Shown: in pieces, positions 3,068 through 64,000 of the stretch
Layout of the letters: each line of letters opens with the position of its first letter
How positions within the stretch are numbered: position 1 is the first letter of the stretch
Assembly (NCBI GenBank): GCA_016213625.1
Contig: JACQZZ010000109.1
Location: forward strand, 1 to 64,000
Length of the DNA stretch: 64,000 bases
DNA from: Actinomycetota bacterium
Lineage (GTDB): Bacteria; Actinomycetota; Acidimicrobiia; Acidimicrobiales; Ilumatobacteraceae
Direction: 5' to 3'
Made by a program: the position numbers and the translations under genes
Notes under the pieces: model-generated
What the model was told of the DNA's origin: nothing
Seen by the model: the letters and a program-made list of their open reading frames with translations, nothing else
Databases searched by the model: none

Positions 3068-4087
3068 TCAGCGCCGCTGCAAGCGGGCCTCCACGGAGGC
3101 CTCGAACTCCGTGGCCGTGGCCAGGCCGCGCTCAGCGTCCAAGCCCAACGTGACCTGCATGAACGCCCACGCGACCGCCACCTGTCGGGCGATGAGCGAC
3201 CTCCACTCCGGCGCGTTCTCGGCCGCCGTGGCAGTGAGGTAATCGCGCACGATGGGCGGCAGGTTCGGCACCTGCTCGGCCAGCTCGGCGTACAACGCGA
3301 TGTCGCTGATGGCCTGGTGACCAGCGCCGGCCAGGTCCACCCTCCAGCTCGGCCGACCGGGCAGCAGCCCCCACGCCCGATCGGCGTCGACGTGCGCCGG
3401 CGTCACCTGGTCGCGCTCGCTCACCACCAGCAGGCTCGGCACGTGCACGCGAGCCAGCAAGGCATCACTCATGCTGCGCATGTACGGCTGGAACCCGATG
3501 ACCGCAGCCACGTGCTCGTGCGGTTCCACTCCTCGACTGCCCGCCGCCGTGGCGTACGCGGTGAAGGCGCCGTACGAATGGCCCGCCAACACGACACGGT
3601 CTCCGTCCACCAGCGCCGCGATGTCGGCGGGGATCTCTGCGTGGCCGTGCAGCATGGCGCCGAGCACCAGATGGGCATCGCCGACCCGATTGACCTCGTT
3701 GGTGCGGTCGTCGGAGTGTCGCCCACTCAACCAGTCGACCAGCGCGTCGCCAGGATGGTCGGCCGACACCACCACCGCTCCCCTCGCAGTCAGTGCCTCG
3801 CACACCTGCGAGTACGAGATGCGCATCCCGGTGCGACCATGCGAGAACAGCACGAGCGGGAACCGCCCCACCGAGGCGTGTGGTGCGTGCTGCGCCCACG
3901 CGGCACGGAACGCGACGCCGGGCACCACCTCGTACACAGATCGCTCGGCCTCCGACACCGCTGCCGGGTACCAGATGTCGACATCGAGCCGCCGCGCCTC
4001 GCGCGAGTCGTCGATGAGCGTGACGGTGCGCCGGCCCACCGGGCGCGACGGCGGTTCGATGGGGGCACCAGCGGTGAGCGCGGTCAT
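3068..4087 (-). CDS. Alpha/beta hydrolase, PAF-acetylhydrolase/dienelactone-hydrolase-like
   Basis: A 339-aa serine hydrolase. The nucleophile elbow GHSYG is at residues 169-173 (Ser171); an oxyanion-loop motif S-H-G-R-T-G precedes it at 82-87; plausible acid and base are Asp226 (SERDQ) and His257 (GAGHQ). A D-I-W-Y-P entry strand near residue 37 is typical of platelet-activating-factor acetylhydrolase-like enzymes, which cleave short acyl esters. No signal peptide is seen, so it is probably cytoplasmic. The ATG overlaps the stop of the flavin reductase gene (ATGA), indicating translational coupling. A much longer frame to 4750 exists but runs over the two upstream genes and was not used. Confidence 0.85.
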   Translation of the reverse strand: MTALTAGAPIEPPSRPVGRRTVTLIDDSREARRLDVDIWYPAAVSEAERSVYEVVPGVAFRAAWAQHAPHASVGRFPLVLFSHGRTGMRISYSQVCEALTARGAVVVSADHPGDALVDWLSGRHSDDRTNEVNRVGDAHLVLGAMLHGHAEIPADIAALVDGDRVVLAGHSYGAFTAYATAAGSRGVEPHEHVAAVIGFQPYMRSMSDALLARVHVPSLLVVSERDQVTPAHVDADRAWGLLPGRPSWRVDLAGAGHQAISDIALYAELAEQVPNLPPIVRDYLTATAAENAPEWRSLIARQVAVAWAFMQVTLGLDAERGLATATEFEASVEARLQRR

Positions 4088-5294: not shown

Positions 5295-5300
5295 GCAGTG

Positions 5301-5306
5301 AACGTA
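5301..5306 (-). promoter_or_regulatory. -10 box of a leaderless promoter for the SirB1-like gene
   Basis: TACGTT on the minus strand, followed by 6 nt and then ATG 5294. This is the TANNNT spacing expected when transcription begins at the start codon. No convincing -35 hexamer is visible. Confidence 0.55.
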
Positions 5307-5314
5307 CCGTCGAC

Positions 5315-5320
5315 TACGTT
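5315..5320 (+). promoter_or_regulatory. -10 box of the acyl-CoA synthetase gene
   Basis: TACGTT on the plus strand, 8 nt before ATG 5329. It lies only 8 bp from the oppositely oriented -10 box of the SirB1-like gene, so the two promoters are back to back inside a 34-bp intergenic stretch. Confidence 0.5.
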
Positions 5321-5328
5321 CCGCTCCC

Positions 5329-6885
5329 ATGTATCCCGGCGCGTTCCTCGACACCCATCCCGACAAGCCCGCCCTCATCATGGGCGGCAGCGGCTTCACC
5401 CAGACCTTCGCCGAGCTCGATGCCGCGGCGAACCGCCTGAGCCACCTGCTGCGCTCGGCCGGCGTGCAACCGGGCGACCACGTGGCGCTGTGCATGGAGA
5501 ACCACGACCGCTACATGGAGATCCTGTGGGGCTGCCACTACGCCGGCGCCATCTACACCGCGTGCTCCAGCCGCCTCACCAGTGGTGAACTCGCCTACAT
5601 CCTCAACGACTGCCAGGCGAAGGTGTTCATCACCTCGAAGTACAAGGCCGACCAGGCCGCCGAGATCGTCGCCGACACCCCGAACGTGGGCCTGCGCCTG
5701 ATGCTCGACGGCACCATCCCCGGCCACGACAGCTACGAAGCGGCCATGTCGGCACAGCCCACCACTCCCCTTCCGGAGGAGCGCGTCGCCGGGTTCGACA
5801 TGCTCTACTCGTCGGGCACCACGGGCCAGCCGAAGGGCGTGGCCCGCGCGTACGTGGGCAACCCGCTCGACACCACGGCCAACGGCGTGTCGCCGCTCGT
5901 GTCGCTGCTGTTCGGTGGCACCTCCGACAGCGTGTACCTGTCGCCGGCGCCCTTCTACCACGCGGCCCCGTTGCGGTTCTGCATGGCCATGCAGCAGATC
6001 GGCGCCACGGTCGTCGCCATGGAGCACTTCGATCCCGAGCAGTACCTCCAGCTGGTCGAGCGCCATCGCATCACGCACAGCCAGGTGGTGCCCACGATGT
6101 TCATCCGCATGCTCAAGCTCGACGAGGCAGTGCGCACGAAGTACGACGTCTCCAGCCTCCAGTGCGTCATCCACGCCGCCGCACCGTGCCCGAAGCAGGC
6201 CAAGAAGCAGATGATCGAGTGGTTCGGCCGCATCATCCACGAGTACTACGCCGGCACCGAGGGCAATGGGTTCGTGTACTGCAACAGCGACATGTGGCTC
6301 GCCCACGAGGGCACCGTCGGCACCCCCATCAACTGCGTCGTGCACATCTGCGGCGACGATGGCGAGGAACTCCCCCGTGGCGAGGCGGGCACCATCTACT
6401 TCGAGGGTGGCGCCAGTTTCGAATACCACAACGACCCCGAGAAGACGAAGGGCTCGCGCCATCCCAGCCAGCCGTGGAGCACCCTGGGCGACGTCGGCTA
6501 CATGGACGACGACAACTTCATCTACCTCACCGACCGCAAGGCCTACATGATCATCAGTGGTGGCGTGAACATCTATCCGCAGGAGGCCGAGAACGTGCTC
6601 GTCGGCCACCCGAAGGTGGTCGATGTCGCGGTGTTCGGCGTCCCCAACGACGACTTCGGCGAAGAGGTCAAGGCCGTCGTCCAGCCCGTCACCATGCCCG
6701 CCACCGCCGACGACGCAGCGGCGCTCTCGAAGGAACTCATCGCCTTCTGCCGCGAGCACCTCGCCGACGTGAAGTGTCCCCGGTCGATCGACTTCCGCGA
6801 GGAGCTCCCCCGGCACCCCACGGGCAAGCTGTACAAGCGGTTGCTCAAGGACGAGTACTGGGCGAACGCTGGCCGCACCATTTGA
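5329..6885 (+). CDS. Acyl-CoA synthetase (AMP-binding, FadD-like)
   Basis: A 518-aa adenylate-forming enzyme that should activate a carboxylic acid with ATP and CoA. The P-loop-like motif YSSGTTGQPKG is at residues 160-170, the Y-A-G-T-E-G motif near 306-311, the G-D-V-G-Y-M motif with the D-R-K hinge near 387-405, and the A10 lysine motif P-T-G-K-L near 497. Length and motif order are those of fatty-acyl/aryl-CoA ligases. It is transcribed divergently from the SirB1-like operon and, with the nearby acyl-CoA dehydrogenase, suggests local beta-oxidation-type catabolism. The acid used cannot be deduced; a steroid or long-chain fatty acid is possible. Confidence 0.92.
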   Translation: MYPGAFLDTHPDKPALIMGGSGFTQTFAELDAAANRLSHLLRSAGVQPGDHVALCMENHDRYMEILWGCHYAGAIYTACSSRLTSGELAYILNDCQAKVFITSKYKADQAAEIVADTPNVGLRLMLDGTIPGHDSYEAAMSAQPTTPLPEERVAGFDMLYSSGTTGQPKGVARAYVGNPLDTTANGVSPLVSLLFGGTSDSVYLSPAPFYHAAPLRFCMAMQQIGATVVAMEHFDPEQYLQLVERHRITHSQVVPTMFIRMLKLDEAVRTKYDVSSLQCVIHAAAPCPKQAKKQMIEWFGRIIHEYYAGTEGNGFVYCNSDMWLAHEGTVGTPINCVVHICGDDGEELPRGEAGTIYFEGGASFEYHNDPEKTKGSRHPSQPWSTLGDVGYMDDDNFIYLTDRKAYMIISGGVNIYPQEAENVLVGHPKVVDVAVFGVPNDDFGEEVKAVVQPVTMPATADDAAALSKELIAFCREHLADVKCPRSIDFREELPRHPTGKLYKRLLKDEYWANAGRTI

Positions 6886-51415: not shown

Positions 51416-52305
51416 TCTGGGTGGTCAGTCCGATGATGTTCGACACCGAGTCGTACACGCGCCTTCGGCGCGAAGTGCATGATGCGGTGACGGCGTCCGG
51501 CGACACCCGCGAGTTGCGCTTCCTGGTGGTCGACGACTCGGCGGGCACCGACCCCGACGTCGCTCCACTGCAGGCGCTCGACGACGTCGAGGTGCTCACT
51601 CCCCCGTTCAACCTCGGTCACCAACGGGCCATCGTCTACGGCCTCCGTCACCTCGCGCCCACGCTGGCCAACGACGACGTCGTGGTCACGATGGACTCCG
51701 ACGGCGAGGACCAGCCGGCTGACGTGCCCCGGCTGCTCGCGGCCCTGCAGTCGTCGGGAGCCGCCCTGGTGCTGGCAGAGCGCACCAAGCGCTCCGAGCC
51801 GCTCCTGTTTCGGGTGCTGTACTCGATGTTCCGCGTGTTCTTCCGGTTCATGGCCGGCATCACCGTGCTGTCGGGCAACTTCGCCGGCCAGCGCGGCGAC
51901 TCGCTGAAGGCCACCGTGCACCATCCGAGCTTCGACCTCTGCTACTCGTCCACGCTGCTCGCGTTGCGACGGGCCACCACCACCGTGCCCTGCGCACGCG
52001 GTCGGCGCTTCGCAGGTCGGTCGCGCATGAACACCTCGTCGCTCATCGCCCACGGCATCCGCATGCTCATGCCGTTCTCCGAGCGAGTGGCCGCACGCAT
52101 GCTCGTCGTGGCCGCCGCGTCGTTCGTCGCCTTCGCGACGTTGCTCGTGCTCGCGGCGACGTCGGTCATCGCCGGGGCCTCGGCAGTCGCCCTGTCCGCC
52201 GCGGCCGGGGTGTTGTTCACCACCACGTTCATCAGCTTCCTGGTGCTCTTCTCCGGGTTCTCGCAGTCGTCGTCGGTGGCCATGAAGGGGCTCGGCACGC
52301 CGTGA
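51412..52305 (+). CDS. GT2 glycosyltransferase with two C-terminal membrane helices
   Basis: A 297-aa protein. The GT-A part has L-V-V-D-D-S-A-G near 38-45, F-N-L-G-H-Q-R-A near 66-73 and the metal motif M-D-S-D-G-E-D-Q-P near 94-102, a variant common in GT2 enzymes that make polyprenyl-phosphate sugars (ArnC/GtrB style). Residues about 215-285 are two hydrophobic helices. It probably loads a sugar on a lipid carrier at the cytoplasmic face. The GTG start overlaps the methyltransferase stop and its end overlaps the next membrane protein start (GTGA both times). Confidence 0.82.
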   Translation: MIWVVSPMMFDTESYTRLRREVHDAVTASGDTRELRFLVVDDSAGTDPDVAPLQALDDVEVLTPPFNLGHQRAIVYGLRHLAPTLANDDVVVTMDSDGEDQPADVPRLLAALQSSGAALVLAERTKRSEPLLFRVLYSMFRVFFRFMAGITVLSGNFAGQRGDSLKATVHHPSFDLCYSSTLLALRRATTTVPCARGRRFAGRSRMNTSSLIAHGIRMLMPFSERVAARMLVVAAASFVAFATLLVLAATSVIAGASAVALSAAAGVLFTTTFISFLVLFSGFSQSSSVAMKGLGTP

Positions 52306-54239
52306 CCGCGCGGCAGGCCACCTGGGCCCGCGCAGCGATGCTCGCCGCGGCCATCGTTCCCATCGTCGTCGCCATCGTGCGGGCGATCGTGCGGCACTGG
52401 TTCCCCATCGGCGACAACGCACTGCTCTACATCCGTGTGGTCGACGTGGGCACCGAGCATCACCCGTTGCTCGGGTCGTGGACCTCTGCGTCGTTGAGTG
52501 TCGGCGAGAACATGAACAACCCCGGGCCGATCTATCAGGATCTGGCGGCCCCGTTCGCGAAGCTGTTCGGACCCGGTCCCGGCGCCGCCCTTGGGGTCGG
52601 CACCATCAACATCCTCGCGGTGGTCGGCATCAGCCTCGCCGCCCGTCGCATCGGGGGCTGGCTCGCCGAGCAATGGGCGCTGCTGGCCGCCGTCGCACTG
52701 GCGTGGACCATGGGGAGCGAGCTGCTCATCGACATCTGGCAAGCCCACGCCCTGCTGCTGCCGTTCCTGCTGCTCCTCGTGCTGCTCGCGGGGCTGGCCG
52801 ACGGTCAGACCTGGTGCCTGGGCTGGTCGCTCGCCGTCGCCTCCCTGCTCGTGCAGACCCACATCAGCTACGCCTACGTGCTCGCCATCCTGTGGCCCGC
52901 CGCATTCGTCAGCTACCTGCTCGTGCGGCGTGGTCGACCTCATCTGCCCTGGCAACAGGCGCTTCGGTCGCGGCGGGCGCTGTACATCGCCGGCGCGATG
53001 CTCCTGCTGTGGTCGCAGACGCTCATCGAACAGTTCTTCGGCCCGGGCAAGGGCAACCTCAGTCGCCTCGCGGGCAACGCCGGCGGCGGAGATCTGCAGG
53101 TGGGCCTCCGCCAAGCACTCGGTATGAGCGCTCGCGTGTACACGCTCCCCCCGTGGTGGCTGCGCAGTGGGTTCTCGTCGTCGGTGCCCAGCACCCCGCT
53201 GTCGGGCACGCCCGAGCAACCCCGCATCGAGATCGCCAACCTCCCGAACACGCTGCTGGCAGTCGTGTCGCTGCTCGCGCTCCTTGCGCTCTTGGGCTTC
53301 GGAGTGGTCCGTCATCGCCGCGGCGAGCGCCACGTGCTCGCGAGTGCGTCGTTGGTGGCGTTGGTGGGCGTCGTCGGCAGCATCCTGGCCGTGTCGAAGC
53401 TCACCGTCGGGCCGGTCGGCCTCGCGGCACACCACGTCCGCCTGTTGTGGCCGCTCGCCGTCTTCGTGCACACCACCGCACTCGCCGTCGTCGTCGCCGA
53501 GGTGCGATCGCGCCTTCCCGAGCAGCTCCCCCGCTCCGTGCACTTCGTGCTGCCGGCCATCGCCGTCGTCGCCGGGGTCCTCGCCGTCCCGTTCCTCGCC
53601 CAGCCACAGGGTCCCGTGGCCGAGTACGCCACGATGCCGACGATGCGTCGCATCATGCCCCACATCGCGCAGCTGAAGGCGGTGGAGCCCGTGCTGTTCG
53701 ACATCAGCACACTGCGCCCGTTCGAGCCCTACAGCAGCACGATGTTGATGACCATGCAGGACATGGACATCGAGTTCCGGGTCGACGACGAAGGCATGGT
53801 GCGCCAACTCGGTGAGTCGCGTCGCGCCGACGGATCCGAGCCGGCCAGGGTGTTCCAGCTGCAGGGCCCGCAGGCCATCCTGTACGACGGCGACGCCTGC
53901 CTCGTGGCGCTGGCCAGCCAGCTCTCCCCCGCCGACGAGGCCACCGCACTCGAGTACGGCGAGCAACTCATCGACCGGCTCGTGCAGGGCTCGTTCGGCG
54001 TGGCCGACTCGGCGTTCGTCGACGGCGCGGAACAACAGCTCGCCGATCTGAACGCTGCCGTCGCCGGCGACCGCGAGGCCGCCCGCAAACTCGTGTACGA
54101 AGGCACCCTCAGCTGGTGGTACTACCACGGCCAGCTCGACGCCGCCGACGACCCGGCGCCGTTGTTCCCGCTGGTCGACACCTACCTCAACACGGCGTAC
54201 GCGCTCTTCAGCGACCAGTCGGCTCCCTGCCCCGGCTGA
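52302..54239 (+). CDS. Polytopic GT-C-like membrane protein (paralogue of 54244-56016)
   Basis: A 645-aa protein with about ten to eleven helices up to residue ~435 and a C-terminal extracytoplasmic domain of about 210 residues. The first loop carries H-W-F-P-I-G-D-N-A and R-V-V-D-V, then H-P-L-L-G and N-N-P-G-P-I; Q-T-H-I-S-Y follows a later helix. The same ordered motifs occur in the convergent neighbour, so they are paralogues. The acidic first loop suggests a lipid-linked sugar transferase, but this is inference and no standard family can be named. It closes the five-gene operon beginning at 48845. Confidence 0.75.
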   Translation: MTARQATWARAAMLAAAIVPIVVAIVRAIVRHWFPIGDNALLYIRVVDVGTEHHPLLGSWTSASLSVGENMNNPGPIYQDLAAPFAKLFGPGPGAALGVGTINILAVVGISLAARRIGGWLAEQWALLAAVALAWTMGSELLIDIWQAHALLLPFLLLLVLLAGLADGQTWCLGWSLAVASLLVQTHISYAYVLAILWPAAFVSYLLVRRGRPHLPWQQALRSRRALYIAGAMLLLWSQTLIEQFFGPGKGNLSRLAGNAGGGDLQVGLRQALGMSARVYTLPPWWLRSGFSSSVPSTPLSGTPEQPRIEIANLPNTLLAVVSLLALLALLGFGVVRHRRGERHVLASASLVALVGVVGSILAVSKLTVGPVGLAAHHVRLLWPLAVFVHTTALAVVVAEVRSRLPEQLPRSVHFVLPAIAVVAGVLAVPFLAQPQGPVAEYATMPTMRRIMPHIAQLKAVEPVLFDISTLRPFEPYSSTMLMTMQDMDIEFRVDDEGMVRQLGESRRADGSEPARVFQLQGPQAILYDGDACLVALASQLSPADEATALEYGEQLIDRLVQGSFGVADSAFVDGAEQQLADLNAAVAGDREAARKLVYEGTLSWWYYHGQLDAADDPAPLFPLVDTYLNTAYALFSDQSAPCPG

Positions 54240-54243
54240 CGGG

Positions 54244-56016
54244 TCAGAACGTGCCGGCGGGAGCGATGAACACCGCTGTCTCCTGGCCGAGCACCAGCAT
54301 GCGCGCCATCTTCTGCTCGGTGGCCGCCGGCACCCGCGGGTCGAGGGATGCGCCGAACAGGTTCGAGTCCACCATCTCGGCCACGTCGTCGAGGCCGGCC
54401 ACCGCGAGCTCGTCCATCACCTCGTCGTGCAGGCGGTCGAACTCGGCCAGCTCGTCGGCCGAGCGCGGCTCGAAGAACGCCACCTCCACGGCCCCCTCAC
54501 GATCACGCCACGCAGCCACGTTGATCCCGGTGGCGAACACGACTTCGGCGGTCGCCGACGACGGGTCGGTGATGCGGTGCGGAGTGACCGGCACCCGGTA
54601 CGTCTCGTACGCGCGGGCGTCGAAGCCGCGGCGCTCGAGCTCGCTGATGAGGCCGTACCCCTGCGAGCCGACGTAGTAGGCGTCGTTCCACACGACGGCA
54701 TACACGCCGTCCTTGCCGTCGGCCGCCCCCACACCGCCGGTCAGTGCGGCGGCGGTGTCGTCGAGCACGGCGTCGAGCGACCGTGAGAGCCGCGGCTCGG
54801 GTGGATCCACCATCGCCGCGTCCTTCACGAAGAAGACACCGGCCACCACCAGCACGGCGACGGCCACACGAGCCAGCGGCAGCGGGCGGCCGTCGCGCCG
54901 TTCCCACCACACGATCGCGGTCCACACCGATGCCGCCACCGCGAGCAGCGCGATGGACCACGACCACAGCGTGAGGTAATACCAGACCTTGCCGAAGATG
55001 CGGCCGGTGGACAGCACCGCCACCGCCACGCCGACCGCCACCACCGTGTGCAGGCGGACGAGGCGCCGGTCGCGCAACCGCCAGGCCACCACGAACGCTC
55101 CGATCCACACCAGGAGCACCACGGCGCCGATGGCCCACCGACCGCCCGCCAGGTCGTCGAGTGTGGCGAGGTGGTCGTCGTTGCGGGTCACCGTGCCCGT
55201 GAGCACGCGGGTGATGTCGAAATGGGCCAGTACGGTCTTGACGCCCACGCCGAACCCCACGGGGTCCTCCGGTGGGGAGAGGAAGTGACGACGCAACATG
55301 GTGATGTTGCCCGGATCGTGGCGGATCTCGTCGATGAACACCGGCAGCCACAGCACCGCGCCGAGACCCACGGCGAACGCCAGGCTGCGAAGGCCGTCTC
55401 GACGCCACACGACCACGCCGATCGCCACCGCACAGAGCACCACGCACAGGGCGAGGTACGGCACGTGCGTCTGCGCGCACAGGGTGGAGAAGCCCACCAG
55501 CGGCACCAACATCAGGTGGTCGCCGTCGAGCACGCTCCAGGCGGCGAGCAGCACGACCACGAAGCTCACCAGCGGGAGGTACGGGTTCCAGGGCTGGGTG
55601 AGCACACTCGCTCCCAGCCACGCCACCACGACCATCAGTACCGCACCCACGCCCAGCATCAGGCGACGACCGCCACGACGACCGGCGATCCACACCGCGG
55701 TCCAGGCGGCACCGACGTTGATGACGGCCGCGCCCACCAACAAGCCGTAGGCCGACCCACCGAACAGGCGGTACACCGGCCACAGCAGGTAGAAGCTCAA
55801 CGGCCCGGGGTGGCTGCCCTGATCGGGGAAGTTCCCGATGCGCCCTGGCAGCCCGATGAGCGGTGTGTGCGCCCCGAACACGTCGCGCACCCGCAGTTCG
55901 GTCATCGCCAGGTCGAGCACCGGCACCCAATGTGTCCGCGCCAGTGCCACCAGCGCCACGAGGAACGGCAACGCCAGGGCGGCGCGCACGGCCCAGGCCG
56001 CCCGGCGGTCGTTCAT
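54244..56016 (-). CDS. Polytopic GT-C-like membrane protein (paralogue of 52302-54239)
   Basis: A 590-aa protein from ATG 56014-56016. It has about eleven helices to residue ~400 and then a soluble C-terminal domain with G-S-Q-G-Y-G-L near 465. The first loop has H-W-V-P-V-L-D-L-A, R-V-R-D-V, T-P-L-I-G and S-H-P-G-P-L-S; Q-T-H-V-P-Y occurs later, matching its neighbour motif for motif. A GT-C-type transferase acting outside the membrane is likely. ATGA overlap links it to the upstream GT2 gene, which may provide its lipid-linked donor. Ends 4 nt from the convergent paralogue. Confidence 0.75.
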   Translation of the reverse strand: MNDRRAAWAVRAALALPFLVALVALARTHWVPVLDLAMTELRVRDVFGAHTPLIGLPGRIGNFPDQGSHPGPLSFYLLWPVYRLFGGSAYGLLVGAAVINVGAAWTAVWIAGRRGGRRLMLGVGAVLMVVVAWLGASVLTQPWNPYLPLVSFVVVLLAAWSVLDGDHLMLVPLVGFSTLCAQTHVPYLALCVVLCAVAIGVVVWRRDGLRSLAFAVGLGAVLWLPVFIDEIRHDPGNITMLRRHFLSPPEDPVGFGVGVKTVLAHFDITRVLTGTVTRNDDHLATLDDLAGGRWAIGAVVLLVWIGAFVVAWRLRDRRLVRLHTVVAVGVAVAVLSTGRIFGKVWYYLTLWSWSIALLAVAASVWTAIVWWERRDGRPLPLARVAVAVLVVAGVFFVKDAAMVDPPEPRLSRSLDAVLDDTAAALTGGVGAADGKDGVYAVVWNDAYYVGSQGYGLISELERRGFDARAYETYRVPVTPHRITDPSSATAEVVFATGINVAAWRDREGAVEVAFFEPRSADELAEFDRLHDEVMDELAVAGLDDVAEMVDSNLFGASLDPRVPAATEQKMARMLVLGQETAVFIAPAGTF

Positions 56017-56750
56017 CCCTTGGTGAACCGCTGCCGCAGGTCTCGCCAGCGGTCGAGGATGCCCCAACCGGTGACCAGCAGCATCGACTCGACGATGATT
56101 CGCGCCGACATCTTGCTGGTGCCCTTCTCGCGGTCCTTGAAGAGGATGGGTGTCTCGACGATGTTCGCTCCCGATCGGGCCAGCCGCCGGGTGAGCTCGG
56201 TGAGGAACGCGTAGCCCTCCGCCGCCGTGCTGGCCGGATCGATGCGCTGCAGCACATCGGCTCTGTACGCGCGGAAACCGGCCGTGCAGTCGCGCACCTT
56301 CGCTCCGAGCAACCACCCCGTGTACCGGTTGCCCCAGCGCGACAGCAGTCGGCGGCGCATCGGCCAGTCCTGCGTGCCACCCCCTGCGACGTACCGGCTG
56401 CCGATCACCACGTCGGCACCACCCTCGATGAGGCCGAGCATCGTGGGAATGACCGCAGGATCGTGCGAGAAGTCGCTGTCCATCGACACCACGACGTCGA
56501 AACCCTCGGCGAACGCCAACGCGAATCCGTGTCGGTACGCGGCACCCAGGCCGGGTCTGCCCTCGCGGTGGACCACCGTGACCTCGCCCAGCTCGGCCGC
56601 CGCCGCGTCGGCGAGCTCGCCCGTGCCGTCGGGGCTGAGGTCGTCGACCACCATCAGATGGGCCTCCGGCACCCTCGCTCTGAGCACCCTGAGCAGGTCG
56701 ACGATGTTCTCCCGCTCGTTGAACGTGGGGATGACGACGACCGGACGCAC
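56013..56750 (-). CDS. GT2 glycosyltransferase, polyprenol monophosphomannose synthase-like
   Basis: A 245-aa soluble GT2 enzyme. I-P-T-F-N-E-R-E-N at 7-15, V-V-D-D-L-S-P-D-G-T-G at 34-44, the metal-binding D-S-D at 91-93 (M-D-S-D-F-S-H-D-P), then G-S-R-Y and F-R-A-Y-R match dolichol/polyprenol-phosphate-mannose synthases (DPM1/Ppm1 catalytic domain). It should make polyprenyl-P-mannose for GT-C enzymes such as the PIG-V-like transferase. The GTG start at 56750 is supported by TAGCAT 8 nt upstream; the longer frame to 57092 runs over the divergent gene. No membrane helices are fused. Confidence 0.9.
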   Translation of the reverse strand: MRPVVVIPTFNERENIVDLLRVLRARVPEAHLMVVDDLSPDGTGELADAAAAELGEVTVVHREGRPGLGAAYRHGFALAFAEGFDVVVSMDSDFSHDPAVIPTMLGLIEGGADVVIGSRYVAGGGTQDWPMRRRLLSRWGNRYTGWLLGAKVRDCTAGFRAYRADVLQRIDPASTAAEGYAFLTELTRRLARSGANIVETPILFKDREKGTSKMSARIIVESMLLVTGWGILDRWRDLRQRFTKG

Positions 56751-56758
56751 GGCCAGCG

Positions 56759-56789: not shown

Positions 56790-57128
56790 ATGCGCCAGGT
56801 TCCCGCTCTCCCCATCGTCGGCTCGTTCGCCGAGCGGCTCCTGGTGGACGACCTTCCCGACCTGCAGCCCGCGCAGCGTCGCGAAGTGGTGGCCTTCATC
56901 GCCCATCGGGTCGATTCGCTGCCCAGCTTCACCCGCTTCGGGGTGCTGGCCATCGGCACCGTCTTTCGCATGCTCGTGGCCGTTCCCGGCGGCTGGCTCG
57001 GTGCCAAGCTGCTGATGAAGCTGCCGCTGCCCTTCGTGGGCGAGTACCCGCGCCTCATGCGGTCGTTGGGCTTCGCGTACGTGTGGGAGCACTGGCCCAC
57101 CACCACCCCCACCGGAGCCCTCGCGTGA
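56790..57128 (+). CDS. Small protein preceding a GMC oxidoreductase, possible partner subunit
   Basis: A 112-aa protein. It begins with a helical region containing P-A-Q-R-R-E-V-V-A-F-I, then a moderately hydrophobic stretch (about 48-75) and ends L-P-F-V-G-E-Y-P-R-L-M-R-S-L-G-F-A-Y. No family is recognised with certainty; the position and rough pattern recall small partner proteins that precede GMC dehydrogenases. The GTG of the GMC gene overlaps its TGA, so synthesis is coupled. ATG 56790 is the likely start, with GTG 56784 as alternative; upstream frame sequence to 55863 is shadow. Confidence 0.6.
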   Translation: MRQVPALPIVGSFAERLLVDDLPDLQPAQRREVVAFIAHRVDSLPSFTRFGVLAIGTVFRMLVAVPGGWLGAKLLMKLPLPFVGEYPRLMRSLGFAYVWEHWPTTTPTGALA

Positions 57129-58558
57129 GCCTCGACGCCGACATCCTCATCATCGGCAGCGGAGCCGGTGGCGCCACCACTGCCACCGTGCTCGCCGAGG
57201 CCGGCCTCGACGTGCTCATCGTGGAAGAGGGCGCGTGGGTGGAACAGGGCTCGGTCGTCCCGTTCTCGCTCGACCAGATGGACCAGCAGTACCGCTCCGG
57301 CGGCGTCACCGTCGCACTCGGCATGCCGTCCATCGCCTACACCGAAGGTCGATGCGCCGGCGGCGGCACCGAAGTGAACAGCGGGCTGTACTGGCGTCCG
57401 CCGGGTGAGCTGCTCGAACGGTGGCGCCACGACTTCCGCATCGCCGACTTCGACCCCGACGACCTGCTGTCCATCGCCGACGAGGTCGAGACCGCCATCA
57501 ACGTGCGCACCGTGCCGGGCCCACACAGCGCTCCCAGTGAGGTGCTCCGCAGCGGCGCCGCAGCGCTCGGGTGGCAGCACAGCGAGGTGCCGCGTTGGAT
57601 GACCTACCCTCACGGCGACGACGCCACGAAGGGCGAGCGGCAGTCGATGACCCGCACCTACTTGCCGCGGGCGATGAAGGCCGGCGCGCGGCTGGTCACC
57701 GGCCGTCGAATCGACCGACTCGTCATCGACGGCGGTCGCGCCACCGAGGCCATCGCTTCCCTGCCCGACGGCTCCACGGAGCGCATCACGTTCCGGCACG
57801 TGTTCGTGTGCGGCGGGGCCATCCAGTCACCGGCCCTCCTGCAACGGTCCGGCGTGAAGGGCCACATCGGTCGCACACTCGCCGTGCATCCCACCGTGAA
57901 GCTCGCAGCCCGCTTCGCCGATGAGCTCAACGTGCCCGACGACGTGCCCGTGCACCAGGTGAAGGAGTTCGCCCCCCACTTGTCGTTCGGCGGGTCGGCC
58001 AGCAACCCCGGCCTCGTGGCACTGAGCCTGCTCGACCAATGGCCCACCTTCCGTCGAGCCGTCACCGACTGGCCGCGCATGAGCGTGTACTACGCCGCGA
58101 TCACCAGCCAGGGCCGGGGACGCGTCATGTCGGTGCCGCGGATGAAGGATCCCATCGTCACGTATCGCCTCACCCACGCCGATCGTGAGCTCCTGCGCAG
58201 CGGCCTCGCCCGACTGGCCCTGCTCATGCTCGAGGCGGGCGCCGAGGAAGTGTTCCCGTCGTTCCGTGGTGCCCCGTCGGTGAAGAACCGGCGCGACGTC
58301 GCCACCATGCAACACGCGTTCAGCGCCACCAAGGCCACCGTGATGACCGTGCACCTGTGCAGCACCGTGCCCATGGGAGAAGTGGCCGAGCGTTGCGGCG
58401 CCGACTCGTTCGGTCGAGTGCACGGCTACCGCAACATCCACGTCAACGATGCCTCGCTGCTGCCCACGGCGCCGGGTGTCAACCCACAGGCGTCGGTGAT
58501 GGCATTCGCCATCCGCAACGCCCGCCACTTCGTCGCCACCGGAGGATCCCGTGCCTGA
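57125..58558 (+). CDS. GMC family FAD-dependent oxidoreductase
   Basis: A 477-aa flavoprotein. The dinucleotide motif G-S-G-A-G-G lies at 11-16, a G-R-C-A-G-G-G-T-E-V-N-S-G segment near 76-88 matches the second GMC signature, and the C-terminal H-V-N-D-A-S-L-L-P-T and N-P-Q-A-S-V-M-A motifs carry the active-site region. It should oxidise an alcohol group of a sterol-, alcohol- or sugar-like substrate. It overlaps a small upstream gene and, by 8 nt, a downstream epimerase/SDR gene, so the four genes form one unit. No signal peptide is seen. Confidence 0.9.
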   Translation: MSLDADILIIGSGAGGATTATVLAEAGLDVLIVEEGAWVEQGSVVPFSLDQMDQQYRSGGVTVALGMPSIAYTEGRCAGGGTEVNSGLYWRPPGELLERWRHDFRIADFDPDDLLSIADEVETAINVRTVPGPHSAPSEVLRSGAAALGWQHSEVPRWMTYPHGDDATKGERQSMTRTYLPRAMKAGARLVTGRRIDRLVIDGGRATEAIASLPDGSTERITFRHVFVCGGAIQSPALLQRSGVKGHIGRTLAVHPTVKLAARFADELNVPDDVPVHQVKEFAPHLSFGGSASNPGLVALSLLDQWPTFRRAVTDWPRMSVYYAAITSQGRGRVMSVPRMKDPIVTYRLTHADRELLRSGLARLALLMLEAGAEEVFPSFRGAPSVKNRRDVATMQHAFSATKATVMTVHLCSTVPMGEVAERCGADSFGRVHGYRNIHVNDASLLPTAPGVNPQASVMAFAIRNARHFVATGGSRA

Positions 58559-59597
58559 AACCTGGTCCGTACCGAACACCACCGTCGTCACCGGCGCCAA
58601 CGGCTGGCTCGGGCGTGCGCTCGTGCACCGCCTGCTCGCCGAACCCGGTCGCCGACAACTGCGGCTCCTCGCGCACAGCACCGCCGACGCGCACTCGTTG
58701 CGCGAGTTCGTCGGCCCCCGCAACGGCGTCGACATCCTCATCGGCGACGTGTCGCGAGCAGACACGGCCCAACGACTGTTGTACGGCGTGTCGAAGGACA
58801 CCGACGTGTTGCACACGGCCGGCGTCATCCACCCGACCAAGGTGCGCCAGTTCGCCGAGGTCAACACGAACGGCACCCGCCACATCACCGAGGCCGCGCT
58901 CGATGCCGGCGTGCGCCGGTTGGTGCACGTGTCGTCCAACAGCCCGTTCGGCACCAATCCCCACGCATCCGACACGTTCCGCGCCGACGAACCGTTCAAC
59001 CCGTACCTCGGGTACGGGAAGAGCAAGATGTTCGCCGAGGTGGCGGTCAACGAGGCCGTCGCCGCCGGCCTCGACGCCACCATCGTGCGCCCGCCGTGGT
59101 TCTACGGGCCCTTCCAGCCGCCACGCCAGACCACGTTCTTCCGGATGGTGCGCGCCGGCAAGTTCCCGGTCATCGGCAAGGGCGACCAGCGCCGCTCGAT
59201 GGTCTACGTCGACAACTTGGTCGACGGCATCCTCGCCGCGGAGCTCACTCCCGCTGCTCGCGGCAACGGCTACTGGATCGCCGACGCTCGCGCCTACACG
59301 GTGAACGAGATCGTCGAGACCGTCGGCCGGGCGTTGGTCGACGAAGGGCTGAGCGTGAAGCCGCCCACCACGCACCTACCCACGCTCGCGGCTCGTGTGG
59401 CCGAGACCGGCGACCGAGTGCTGCAGGCCGTTGGCGTGTATCAGCAGCAACTGCACGTGCTCGGCGAGATGGGCCACACCATCGCCTGCGACATCAGTCG
59501 TTCCACCGCCGAGATCGGCTATGAGCCGAAGGTGGAACTGTACGAAGGCATGCGCCGCAGCATCCGCTGGTGCCTCGATCAGGGCCTCGAGCTGTGA
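58551..59597 (+). CDS. NAD-dependent epimerase/3-beta-HSD-like extended SDR
   Basis: A 348-aa extended SDR. T-G-A-N-G-W-L-G at 14-21 binds the cofactor, a D-V-L-H-T-A-G segment follows near 84-90, V-S-S-N-S carries the catalytic Ser, and Y-G-K-S-K (about 149-153) the Tyr-Lys pair. R-P-P-W-F-Y-G-P is the usual substrate-loop motif. It could epimerise or dehydrogenate a nucleotide sugar or oxidise a 3-hydroxy lipid. The GTG start lies inside the GMC gene's last codons, and the stop overlaps the next SDR start (GTGA). Confidence 0.88.
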   Translation: MPETWSVPNTTVVTGANGWLGRALVHRLLAEPGRRQLRLLAHSTADAHSLREFVGPRNGVDILIGDVSRADTAQRLLYGVSKDTDVLHTAGVIHPTKVRQFAEVNTNGTRHITEAALDAGVRRLVHVSSNSPFGTNPHASDTFRADEPFNPYLGYGKSKMFAEVAVNEAVAAGLDATIVRPPWFYGPFQPPRQTTFFRMVRAGKFPVIGKGDQRRSMVYVDNLVDGILAAELTPAARGNGYWIADARAYTVNEIVETVGRALVDEGLSVKPPTTHLPTLAARVAETGDRVLQAVGVYQQQLHVLGEMGHTIACDISRSTAEIGYEPKVELYEGMRRSIRWCLDQGLEL

Positions 59598-60634
59598 TCA
59601 GCCTCGTCACCGGTGGCAGCGGCTACTTCGGTGCGCTGCTCGTCCATCGCCTGGTGGCCGCGGGCCACACCGTGCGCGTCCTCGACCTCAACGACGCCGA
59701 CGACCGTCCTGCCGGCGTCGAGCTGGTGCAGGGCGACATCCGCGAACCACAGGTCGTCGCCCGTGCCGTGCAGGGAGTCGACGTGGTGTTCAACAACGTC
59801 GCCCAGGTACCGCTCGCGAAGGACCACGAGCTGCTCCGCACGGTCAACGTCGATGGCACCTCCCTCCTGCTGGCCGAGTGCCGACGAGCCGGCGTGCGCA
59901 AGGTGGTGCACACCTCGTCCAGTGCCGTGTTCGGCATCCCGCGCAGCAACCCGGTGCTGCCGTCCACCGTCCCCTCACCCGTCGAGGAATACGGTCACGC
60001 CAAGCTCGCCGCTGAATGGGCCTGTCTCGACGCCGTACGCGAGGGCCTCGACGTGTCCATCGTTCGACCGCGCACCATTCTCGGCCACGGCCGACTCGGC
60101 ATCTTCGGCATTCTGTTCGAGTGGGTGGCCGACGGCGCCGACATCTTCGTGCTCGGCGACGGCAGCAACCGCTACCAGTTCGTCCACGCCGACGATCTGG
60201 CCGATGCCTGCATCCTCGCCGGTGCGGCGGCCGGACCCGCCGTGTTCAACGTGGGCACCGACCGCTTCGGCACGATGCGCGAGTCCCTCGAGGCGCTGTG
60301 CGCACACGCCGGCACCGGTTCGAAGGTGCGCTCGCTCCCAGCCCGGCCCGCGTCGATGGGCATGAAGGCCGCCGCCGGCCTGCACCTCGCCCCGTTCGCT
60401 CCATATCACTGGCTGATGTACAGCAAGTCGTTGTGGTTCGACATCCAGCACGTGCAGGACACCCTGCAGTGGCAGCCGAAGTTCTCCAACGCCGAGATGC
60501 TCGCCGACAGCTACGACTGGTTCCTCGCCAACCGTGCCCACACCGCCGACGCCGGCCAGAGCCACCACCGCACCATCGCCAAGCAGGGCGCGCTGAAGGT
60601 GCTGAAGACCGCCACCCGCCTGTTGCCCGGCTGA
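59594..60634 (+). CDS. NAD-dependent epimerase/dehydratase (second extended SDR)
   Basis: A 346-aa extended SDR from GTG 59594. T-G-G-S-G-Y-F-G at 6-13, N-N-V-A-Q near 75, H-T-S-S-S-A-V-F-G near 106-114, and Y-G-H-A-K at about 132-136 give the full catalytic set; R-P-R-T-I-L-G-H and Y-Q-F-V-H-A-D-D-L follow as in sugar-nucleotide epimerases. It is related to its upstream neighbour but diverged. Four coupled genes (small protein, GMC, SDR, SDR) suggest oxidation of a hydroxyl followed by reduction or epimerisation of the same molecule. The stop is 3 nt from the convergent lipoprotein gene. Confidence 0.88.
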   Translation: MISLVTGGSGYFGALLVHRLVAAGHTVRVLDLNDADDRPAGVELVQGDIREPQVVARAVQGVDVVFNNVAQVPLAKDHELLRTVNVDGTSLLLAECRRAGVRKVVHTSSSAVFGIPRSNPVLPSTVPSPVEEYGHAKLAAEWACLDAVREGLDVSIVRPRTILGHGRLGIFGILFEWVADGADIFVLGDGSNRYQFVHADDLADACILAGAAAGPAVFNVGTDRFGTMRESLEALCAHAGTGSKVRSLPARPASMGMKAAAGLHLAPFAPYHWLMYSKSLWFDIQHVQDTLQWQPKFSNAEMLADSYDWFLANRAHTADAGQSHHRTIAKQGALKVLKTATRLLPG

Positions 60635-63049: not shown

Positions 63050-64000
63050 TCAGCGACGGTGCTTGGCCATCACTCGGTCGTGCAGCGCCTGCAACACCCC
63101 ACGCGCCGACGACTCCCACGTGAGGGTCTGTGCCCGTTCGAGCGCTGCCGCACCCAGAGCCTCGCGCCGCGTCGAGTCGAGCAACACGTCGGCCAATGCG
63201 GTGCCCAGTTGCTCGAGCGGCACCAGCACGCCCGTCGTGCCGTCGATCACACTGCTGCGATGACCGTTCACGTCGGTGGCCACCGCCGGCGTGCCACACG
63301 CGGCGGCCTCCGTCAGCGTGAGGCCCCACCCCTCGGCCAGCGAGGCGCTGGTGACCAGCCACGCCGATTGGTACAGCGCCACCAGGTGGTCGTGATCCAG
63401 TCGGCCGGCCAGGGTGATCCAGTCGTGCGCGTGGTGACGGGCGATGTTCGCCTCGAGCACCGGACGCAGCGGCCCCTCCCCCACGATCACCAACTGCAGG
63501 TCCGGCACGCGCTGCTTGGCCTCGACCGCCGCGTCGATGAGCTGGTCCTGCCGCTTCACCGGCGCCAATCGCCCCACACACACCACCGTCGGCACCTCGG
63601 CCCGCGACCCACCGGGCTGGAACATGTCGTCGACCCCGTTGTTGACCGCCACCACCCGATCTGGCTTGAAGCCCAGGTGCAGCAGCTCGTCGCGAGTGGC
63701 GTCGCTGGGCGTGAGTGTGAGCGTGCGTCGGTAGAACGGCGGCGCCAGACGCGACTCCACCGCTCGGCCCATGAACGCCATGGGCGCCGGCAACAACTGG
63801 TCCCACATCGGCCCGTGCACGTGGTGGAGGACCGTGATGCGCGGCTTGTGGCACCACAGCGGGCTCATCCACGGCACGCCGTTCCACACCTCCACCAGCG
63901 CGTCGAAGCTCCCGCGATGCACCACCTCGGAGGCGATGCCCCGCGGGAACACCGAATAGCGGCTGCCCTTGCGCACCACGGAATAGCCGTTGCGCTGCGC
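63050..64000 (-). CDS. GT4 family glycosyltransferase (5' part outside window)
   Basis: At least 316 aa are visible; the frame stays open to the right edge (N-G-Y-S-V-V-R-K-G before the first in-frame GTG), so the true start lies beyond 64000. The visible part has H-H-V-H-G-P-M-W-D, N-N-G-V-D and C-V-G-R-L-A-P-V-K-R of the GT-B fold. The C-terminal nucleotide-binding E-x7-E-like segment is S-L-A-E-G-W-G-L-T-L-T-E-A-A-A-C-G-T-P. It should transfer a hexose from a nucleotide sugar, probably mannose-type, to a lipid or glycan on the cytoplasmic face. It extends the envelope-glycan region beyond the window. Confidence 0.9.
   Translation of the reverse strand, partial: AQRNGYSVVRKGSRYSVFPRGIASEVVHRGSFDALVEVWNGVPWMSPLWCHKPRITVLHHVHGPMWDQLLPAPMAFMGRAVESRLAPPFYRRTLTLTPSDATRDELLHLGFKPDRVVAVNNGVDDMFQPGGSRAEVPTVVCVGRLAPVKRQDQLIDAAVEAKQRVPDLQLVIVGEGPLRPVLEANIARHHAHDWITLAGRLDHDHLVALYQSAWLVTSASLAEGWGLTLTEAAACGTPAVATDVNGHRSSVIDGTTGVLVPLEQLGTALADVLLDSTRREALGAAALERAQTLTWESSARGVLQALHDRVMAKHRR

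Follow-up and report, generated by a model that had tools for sequence, protein, structure and literature searches.

Mycobacteria remodel a lipid-linked five-carbon sugar with DprE1/DprE2 (decaprenylphosphoryl-ribose 2'-epimerase), an enzyme pair unrelated to the proteins described here, both members of which are validated tuberculosis drug targets. The main text describing the three-component systems of Citrobacter youngae lists a HAD plus UbiA synthase, a flippase, a membrane glycosyltransferase and an auxiliary epimerase, and such epimerases diversify ribofuranose there, the short-chain dehydrogenase/reductase (SDR) ORF13 leading to xylofuranose and DprE1/E2 to arabinofuranose (PMC11127046). 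The accessible part of a second report describes the noeC, noeH and noeO genes as orthologous to those for decaprenylphosphoryl-arabinose biosynthesis (PMC5080398). As far as the accessible parts of this literature go, the ribofuranose diversifiers described are DprE1/DprE2 and one SDR epimerase, and our literature search, with preprints and most subscription journals outside its scope, turned up no report linking a GMC enzyme to lipid-linked pentoses. Here we describe a four-gene unit encoding a small protein, a GMC-family flavin oxidoreductase and two extended SDRs (SDR1 and SDR2), located in a 64,000-nucleotide stretch of DNA, hereafter the window, from an Actinomycetota bacterium of the family Ilumatobacteraceae (assembly GCA_016213625.1, contig JACQZZ010000109.1, positions 1 to 64,000). 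Judging from the genes and their associations alone, we hold with moderate confidence that the unit is a redox module for lipid-linked pentofuranoses, probably an epimerase.

The unit comprises four intact open reading frames (ORFs) on the plus strand at 56790-60634, and the overlaps of 4, 8 and 4 nt described in an initial annotation of the window are borne out by the ORF coordinates and by inspection of the junction bases. The small protein (56790-57128, plus strand, ATG start, 112 aa) precedes the GMC enzyme (57125-58558, plus strand, GTG start, 477 aa), SDR1 (58551-59597, plus strand, GTG start, 348 aa) and SDR2 (59594-60634, plus strand, GTG start, 346 aa); the GC content of the window is uniform at 66-71%. 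Membership of the GMC family is established by PF00732 (127 bits) and PF05199 (64 bits), both over the Pfam cut-offs, by the placement of the protein in a GMC tree and by the alignment, in which the Gly of the FAD GxGxxG motif, His410 (codon 58352-58354, plus strand) and Asn453 (codon 58481-58483, plus strand) are kept in 38/38 rows. We take His410 and Asn453 to be the catalytic His/Asn pair from what is known of the family. The DprE1 model NF053785 is absent from the best 25 NCBIfam matches of this protein, and its 13 listed Pfam families include none of the FAD_binding_4 type. Both SDRs exceed the PF01370 cut-off (SDR1 107 bits, SDR2 135 bits) and carry TGxxGxxG together with a YxxxK motif (Y155xxxK159 in SDR1, Y133xxxK137 in SDR2), the Tyr and Lys of which are invariant in 35/35 and 33/33 rows, respectively. 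Their best NCBIfam matches are HpnA, dTDP-glucose dehydratase and OleD types, all below cut-off, and the DprE2 model NF053786, a classical SDR, is not among the best 25 of either protein.

The relatives sample contained 61 genomes (the window's own and 60 relatives), and the GMC protein was matched in 22 of them at E<=1e-30. Nineteen hold orthologues (> 400 bits, or split pieces in G012), and three with only distant GMCs of about 190-220 bits (G043, G046 and G055) were excluded from the orthologue counts. Sixteen of these carry the four genes in the window's order and on a single strand; G048 and G038 carry GMC-SDR1-SDR2 with a divergent small ORF found only by a profile or a distant query (13.7 bits, E 0.003; E 2e-4), and the G012 locus is cut by a contig end. 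SDR2 occurs in 18 of the 61 genomes, each of them among the 19 and none without a GMC orthologue, so the genes are not dispersed in relatives, the outcome that the initial annotation had regarded as fatal to its proposal. With start codons in the relative loci set by a script rule, which affects the overlap counts, the SDR1/SDR2 overlap of 4 nt is seen in 13/17 loci holding both genes, a GMC/SDR1 overlap of 4 or 8 nt in 14/17, and the 4-nt overlap of the small gene with GMC in only 7/16. Because both the proteins and their order are conserved in relatives, the four-gene arrangement is more than chance. A broader set of 396 genomes from the phylum gave matches to the GMC protein in 42 at E<=1e-60, only five of them exceeding 700 bits; when 30 of these loci were compared, SDR1 and SDR2 stood beside all five of the > 700-bit GMCs and beside 0/25 distant ones. 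A second Acidimicrobiia clade shows a looser order, the SDR pair lying on the opposite strand or farther off in three loci (L092, L094, L096) and elsewhere in the genome in two (L095, L142). The conserved gene order proposed at the outset thus holds within the family and breaks up in this second clade and in some distant genomes.

In a GMC tree of 77 hand-chosen rows, near copies being omitted and the unit label also being given to L095 and L142, a branch with 100/100 support sets the 38 rows of this type apart from the rest. This clade takes in Acidimicrobiia, Verrucomicrobiota, Myxococcota, Burkholderiales and Alphaproteobacteria. Across the 31 loci shared by GMC, SDR1 and SDR2, the pairwise distances of the three proteins fall in similar rank order (Spearman 0.85-0.89), as fits co-inherited genes, although shared phylogeny alone also yields such agreement.

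Rhizobial plasmids provide a link to lipid-linked pentoses. On pNGR234a of Sinorhizobium fredii, SDR2, an SMR gene, the small gene and GMC face a 658-aa membrane protein with 10 predicted membrane segments, SDR1 and a HAD-UbiA gene whose product scores 617 bits against the 351-bit cut-off of the UbiA-family model. The same seven genes form one stretch in Rhizobium sp. CCGE531 and S. garamanticum, straddle the start of the record in M. japonicum pMLa, and extend over two contigs in S. shofinae, where the contig break interrupts the gene for the membrane protein; six of the seven are found in Mesorhizobium AR07, along with a remnant of UbiA and, 24 kb away, a full-length copy, and the stretch in R. 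gallicum is without the membrane protein. Besides S. shofinae, the loci read in detail come from six of the nine plasmid records that hold this GMC; the remaining three records were seen as matches only. In R. gallicum M101, GMC and UbiA are each found in two frames (L207:9765-11206 and 5299-6716), which may reflect locus decay or record errors. The seven-gene locus of pNGR234a, pMLa (L203/L208) and loci L204-L207, to which no function has been assigned, lies on classic symbiosis plasmids. Phosphoenolpyruvate-hydrolase-family genes recur by the rhizobial locus in pMLa, L204 and L207, in two of these with Tm-1-like, cupin and Gfo/Idh/MocA genes as well.

HAD-UbiA is found in every one of the nine plasmid records that hold this GMC, at a distance of 3-10 kb in eight and 24 kb in one. 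Among the 60 of 82 HAD-UbiA plasmid matches listed (60 of 63 for DprE1), 9 records have GMC, 31 have DprE1, 20 have neither and none has both (Fisher p 0.0007, a value that overstates independence because the plasmid records are related). DprE1 lies within 5 kb of the synthase in 30 of the 31 DprE1-holding records listed. Eight of the 20 loci with neither enzyme were read; EamA or GtrA transporters or glycosyltransferases follow the synthase and no GMC is annotated, as expected of plain ribofuranose systems. Because GMC, SDR1 and SDR2 sit with HAD-UbiA and SMR on these plasmids, and GMC and DprE1 share none of the records listed, a lipid-linked pentofuranose is the likely substrate. Flippase-like genes accompany the unit as SMR in rhizobia and in the alphaproteobacterial locus L153, and as LPG_synthase_TM in the Polyangiaceae locus L102; none was identified in the window's unit. 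The rhizobial SMR has the ArnE flippase as its best match at 39.8 bits, below the cut-off of 92, and the multi-transmembrane proteins of the loci reach no Pfam or NCBIfam glycosyltransferase family. The pNGR234a locus is separated from nodU and nodS by about 6.6 kb and an IS21 element, and closeness to nodSU in NGR234 and S. shofinae is the sole link to Nod factors. No nod gene is listed in the stretches of the plasmid loci L203 to L207, and a scan upstream of the pNGR234a locus with a nod box pattern (0 matches at <=3 mismatches) is uninformative because the pattern missed nodS too.

The same association is seen in metagenome-assembled genomes (MAGs) outside the Acidimicrobiia. In the Alphaproteobacteria MAG locus L153 the gene order is HAD-UbiA, SDR2, SMR/EamA, small, GMC, and in the Burkholderiales MAG L109 a contig opens with the C-terminus of HAD-UbiA, followed by small, GMC, SDR1 and SDR2, and a further contig of the same genome has HAD-UbiA at its end. 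UbiA (E<=1e-5) was found in 2/7 non-actinobacterial unit loci vs 0/54 loci with distant GMCs (p 0.011). The proposed link to polyprenyl-phosphate sugars fits these neighbourhoods, and the adjacent glycan machinery of the initial annotation is now narrowed to a phosphoribose/pentofuranose pathway.

The window's own contig continues beyond the stretch covered by the initial annotation, and there it encodes a membrane protein, DprE2, DprE1, UbiA and a HAD phosphatase (L050:2059-6422, equivalent to G000:C87:66059-70422). DprE2 scores 318 bits against a cut-off of 250, DprE1 616 against 500 and UbiA (NF008978) 348 against 207; the three genes lie 6-11 kb downstream of the unit, UbiA being 10.4 kb from GMC. 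An ORF that looks like a putative SAM methyltransferase overlaps the end of UbiA on this contig. The idea, suggested by the HAD-UbiA gene of L153, that the unit replaces DprE1/DprE2 in the window's genome was dropped in view of this true set. The canonical arabinose route is present beside the unit, which must add to it or duplicate it; with the true DprE1, DprE2 and UbiA encoded on its contig, the unit here probably yields a second pentose, other than arabinose. GMC and UbiA share a contig in 13 relative genomes, 12 of which have them 7-33 kb apart. G048, estimated at 100% completeness, has the unit and a divergent UbiA 10 kb apart and no DprE1. A UbiA polyprenyl-phosphoribose synthase, a component of the three-component plan, is accordingly linked to the unit on the window's own contig, in L153, in L109 and in rhizobia.

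Several observations weigh against the pentofuranose assignment. In Acidimicrobiia the conserved lipid-sugar gene nearest to the unit is not UbiA but a glycosyltransferase resembling DPMS. Although DPPR-synthase UbiA is found in 18/19 unit relatives vs 26/42 others (p 0.012), genome-level co-occurrence alone is weak, and the same applies outside the Actinomycetota, where UbiA is present in 7/7 unit genomes vs 11/19 controls with distant GMCs (p 0.06); given its presence in those 11, such co-occurrence was dropped as main proof. UbiA does not adjoin the unit in 4/7 non-actinobacterial genomes, on the contigs examined, and counting all 26 unit loci gives UbiA in 2/26 vs 0/54 (p 0.10). The unit and UbiA are 1.25 Mb apart in G038, and G012 (78% complete) is without UbiA. 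Neither the plasmid records nor the synteny within the family can be counted as independent events. Finally, both SDRs may not be needed, because SDR1 is missing in G450 and SDR2 in G444 (E<=1e-40).

For the substrate, the carbon that is changed, the division of labour, the electron acceptor and the net inversion of a hydroxyl alike, what we infer is a provisional scheme. A UbiA-type synthase would load ribose-5-phosphate from phosphoribosyl pyrophosphate onto polyprenyl phosphate, and a HAD phosphatase would strip the 5'-phosphate to leave polyprenyl-phosphoryl-ribofuranose. The GMC flavoenzyme, held by its small partner, might then oxidise one secondary hydroxyl to a ketone by His410/Asn453 chemistry, and one SDR could reduce this ketone from the opposite face with NAD(P)H. 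The lipid-linked product would be flipped and used by a membrane glycosyltransferase. The second SDR may act at a second carbon, or may epimerise on its own as reported for ORF13 in the main text cited above (PMC11127046).

A special case of this pentofuranose scheme is that the unit provides a second, non-homologous route to lipid-linked D-arabinofuranose, with GMC standing in for DprE1 at C2' and an SDR for DprE2. The absence of DprE1 (E<=1e-10) from 6/7 non-actinobacterial unit genomes (the exception being Bradyrhizobium), its absence from G048 and the plasmid exclusivity among the matches listed are all consistent with such a route; however, 18/19 unit relatives also hold DprE1 (vs 27/42 others), which would make a second C2' route redundant in them, and nothing in the sequences fixes the carbon. 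We regard this version as doubtful while giving it serious consideration. The pentose might instead be oxidised without inversion, for example at the primary C5' hydroxyl, to a keto, deoxy or otherwise altered sugar, with the SDRs acting as dehydrogenases or in a dehydratase-like manner. GMC enzymes oxidise primary alcohols too, and two SDRs exceed the need of a single inversion. The structure model of the GMC protein (residues 53-85 at a pLDDT below 50) leaves both chemistries in play: its Foldseek match with the best E-value is fructose dehydrogenase (2e-25), C-glycoside oxidases and those sugar GMCs that have small subunits are among its matches, which cover primary- and secondary-alcohol enzymes alike, and fold Z scores of 34.2 for choline oxidase, 32.7 for fructose dehydrogenase and 31.6 for cholesterol oxidase single out no substrate class. 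The presence of GMC with the synthase, in a slot filled elsewhere by DprE1/DprE2, nevertheless suggests inversion and makes a purely oxidative role improbable.

Other substrates are harder to reconcile with the neighbourhoods. The DPMS-like, or polyprenyl-phosphate-hexose-synthase-like, glycosyltransferase adjoining the unit in the window is a divergent neighbour (56013-56756, minus strand; best NCBIfam match a dolichyl-phosphate hexose transferase at 67.8 bits vs a cut-off of 375), and its gene is close to the unit in many relatives, so the unit might modify the polyprenyl-phosphate hexose that this enzyme would provide. We consider this improbable, as no DPMS (E<=1e-3) was found in seven unit loci of other phyla (L098, L100, L101, L102, L104, L109 and L153), where UbiA or flippase-like genes occur instead; a DPMS-like gene does stand beside UbiA in the Verrucomicrobia genome L182. 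A role in sterol, hopanoid or long-chain-alcohol metabolism, with a cholesterol-oxidase-like or fatty-alcohol-oxidizing GMC and SDRs resembling 3-beta-hydroxysteroid dehydrogenases, would agree with the scores of both SDRs over the PF01073 3Beta_HSD cut-off (90 and 94 bits) and with the cholesterol oxidases that are the top PDB sequence matches of the GMC protein. Those matches span only residues 416-470 (55 residues), however, and the GMC protein scores 43.2 bits against the 850-bit cut-off of the cholesterol oxidase model NF058674; the clustering with cholesterol oxidases that had been named as the counter-case is therefore not seen. SDR1 and SDR2 likewise fall far below the cut-offs for HpnA (TIGR03466; 79 and 112 bits vs 368), OleD (NF042422; 77 and 97 vs 580) and SdmB (NF052578; 72 and 86 vs 600). 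With neighbourhoods that consist of glycan genes, we judge a sterol-type role highly improbable.

The small protein reaches no Pfam cut-off, that of PF13618 included, yet it is conserved, with a mean column identity of 38% over 17 aligned rows, and its AlphaFold2 model has five helices at a pLDDT of 88. By hhalign, the window-set profile matched small proteins of other phyla at 95.8%, and these in turn matched the partner ORFs of distant GMCs at 98.5%, whereas the direct comparison of the window-set profile with the distant-GMC partner ORFs gave only 2.4%. The homologous domain in the Polyangiaceae locus L104 reaches PF13618 (Gluconate_2-dh3) by 0.5 bit (23.9 vs 23.4). There and in a second locus of this family (L102:6535-7983 and L104:6454-7980), an LPG_synthase_TM membrane protein encoded directly upstream of GMC carries the partner domain at its C-terminus, and in distant GMCs, judged by eye, the upstream region is either a separate ORF or an N-terminal fusion. 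This chain of matches supports the earlier suggestion of a GMC partner: the protein is probably a split, divergent partner subunit of Gluconate_2-dh3-like type, and it may tie the GMC enzyme to the membrane. No PDB structure matched its model (best Foldseek E 2.4; best VIA Z 4.1), which shows neither a new fold nor an absence of relatives.

Elsewhere in the window, a glycosyltransferase of the family-4 type (63050-63979, minus strand; PF00534 at 114.6 bits) extends past its ORF call and has counterparts near the unit in 11 of 22 relative loci scanned. Two large multi-transmembrane proteins (52302-54239 and 54244-56016), related to each other at about 30% over 180-196 aa and without a Pfam family over cut-off, are candidate GT-C enzymes of the locus. 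The sole tRNA call is a tRNA-Ala(cgc) at 3783-3876 on the minus strand, which at 94 nt is long for alanine.

If the assignment to lipid-linked pentofuranoses is true, a separate flavoenzyme module shares the genomic place of DprE1/DprE2 and extends across at least four phyla and onto classic symbiosis plasmids. It would then account for a group of genes that lack an assignment, lead one to expect new pentoses in surface glycans, and offer a tractable system for studying the formation and reduction of a ketone on a lipid-linked furanose. Going further, we suggest tentatively, and as an unlikely outcome at present, that the unit diversifies lipid-linked pentofuranoses by a third route, one that depends on a GMC flavoenzyme and works at C3' (or at both C2' and C3') to give xylo- or even lyxofuranose beside DprE1/DprE2, and that in rhizobia such as NGR234 the module might add an unrecognised pentose to a symbiotic glycan or Nod factor.

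Among known systems, the sugar dehydrogenases of the GMC family (fructose dehydrogenase, the gamma-alpha complex of FAD glucose dehydrogenase, and gluconate 2-dehydrogenase) resemble the unit in pairing a GMC large subunit with a small helical partner; they differ in that no cytochrome gene was found in the unit, and the fold Z scores are not distinctive. Nod-factor arabinosylation by noeCNHOP, as far as the accessible part of the report describes it, likewise concerns a polyprenyl-phosphate pentofuranose for a rhizobial signal or glycan, whereas the pNGR234a locus has GMC and extended SDRs (PMC5080398). The C. youngae systems share the overall plan of HAD-UbiA synthase, flippase, membrane glycosyltransferase and epimerase, but the words 'gmc', 'flavin' and 'oxidoreductase' have 0 hits in the main text of that report (PMC11127046). 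The oxidise-then-reduce analogy with DprE1/DprE2 drawn at the outset fits in its logic, and the families differ as was then said: the pair shares with the unit a flavin oxidation followed by SDR reduction, the siting with a UbiA phosphoribose synthase and the same plasmid slot, while the unit has a GMC fold, extended SDRs where DprE2 is a classical one, an extra small partner and a second SDR, and it coexists with the true pair in the window's genome.

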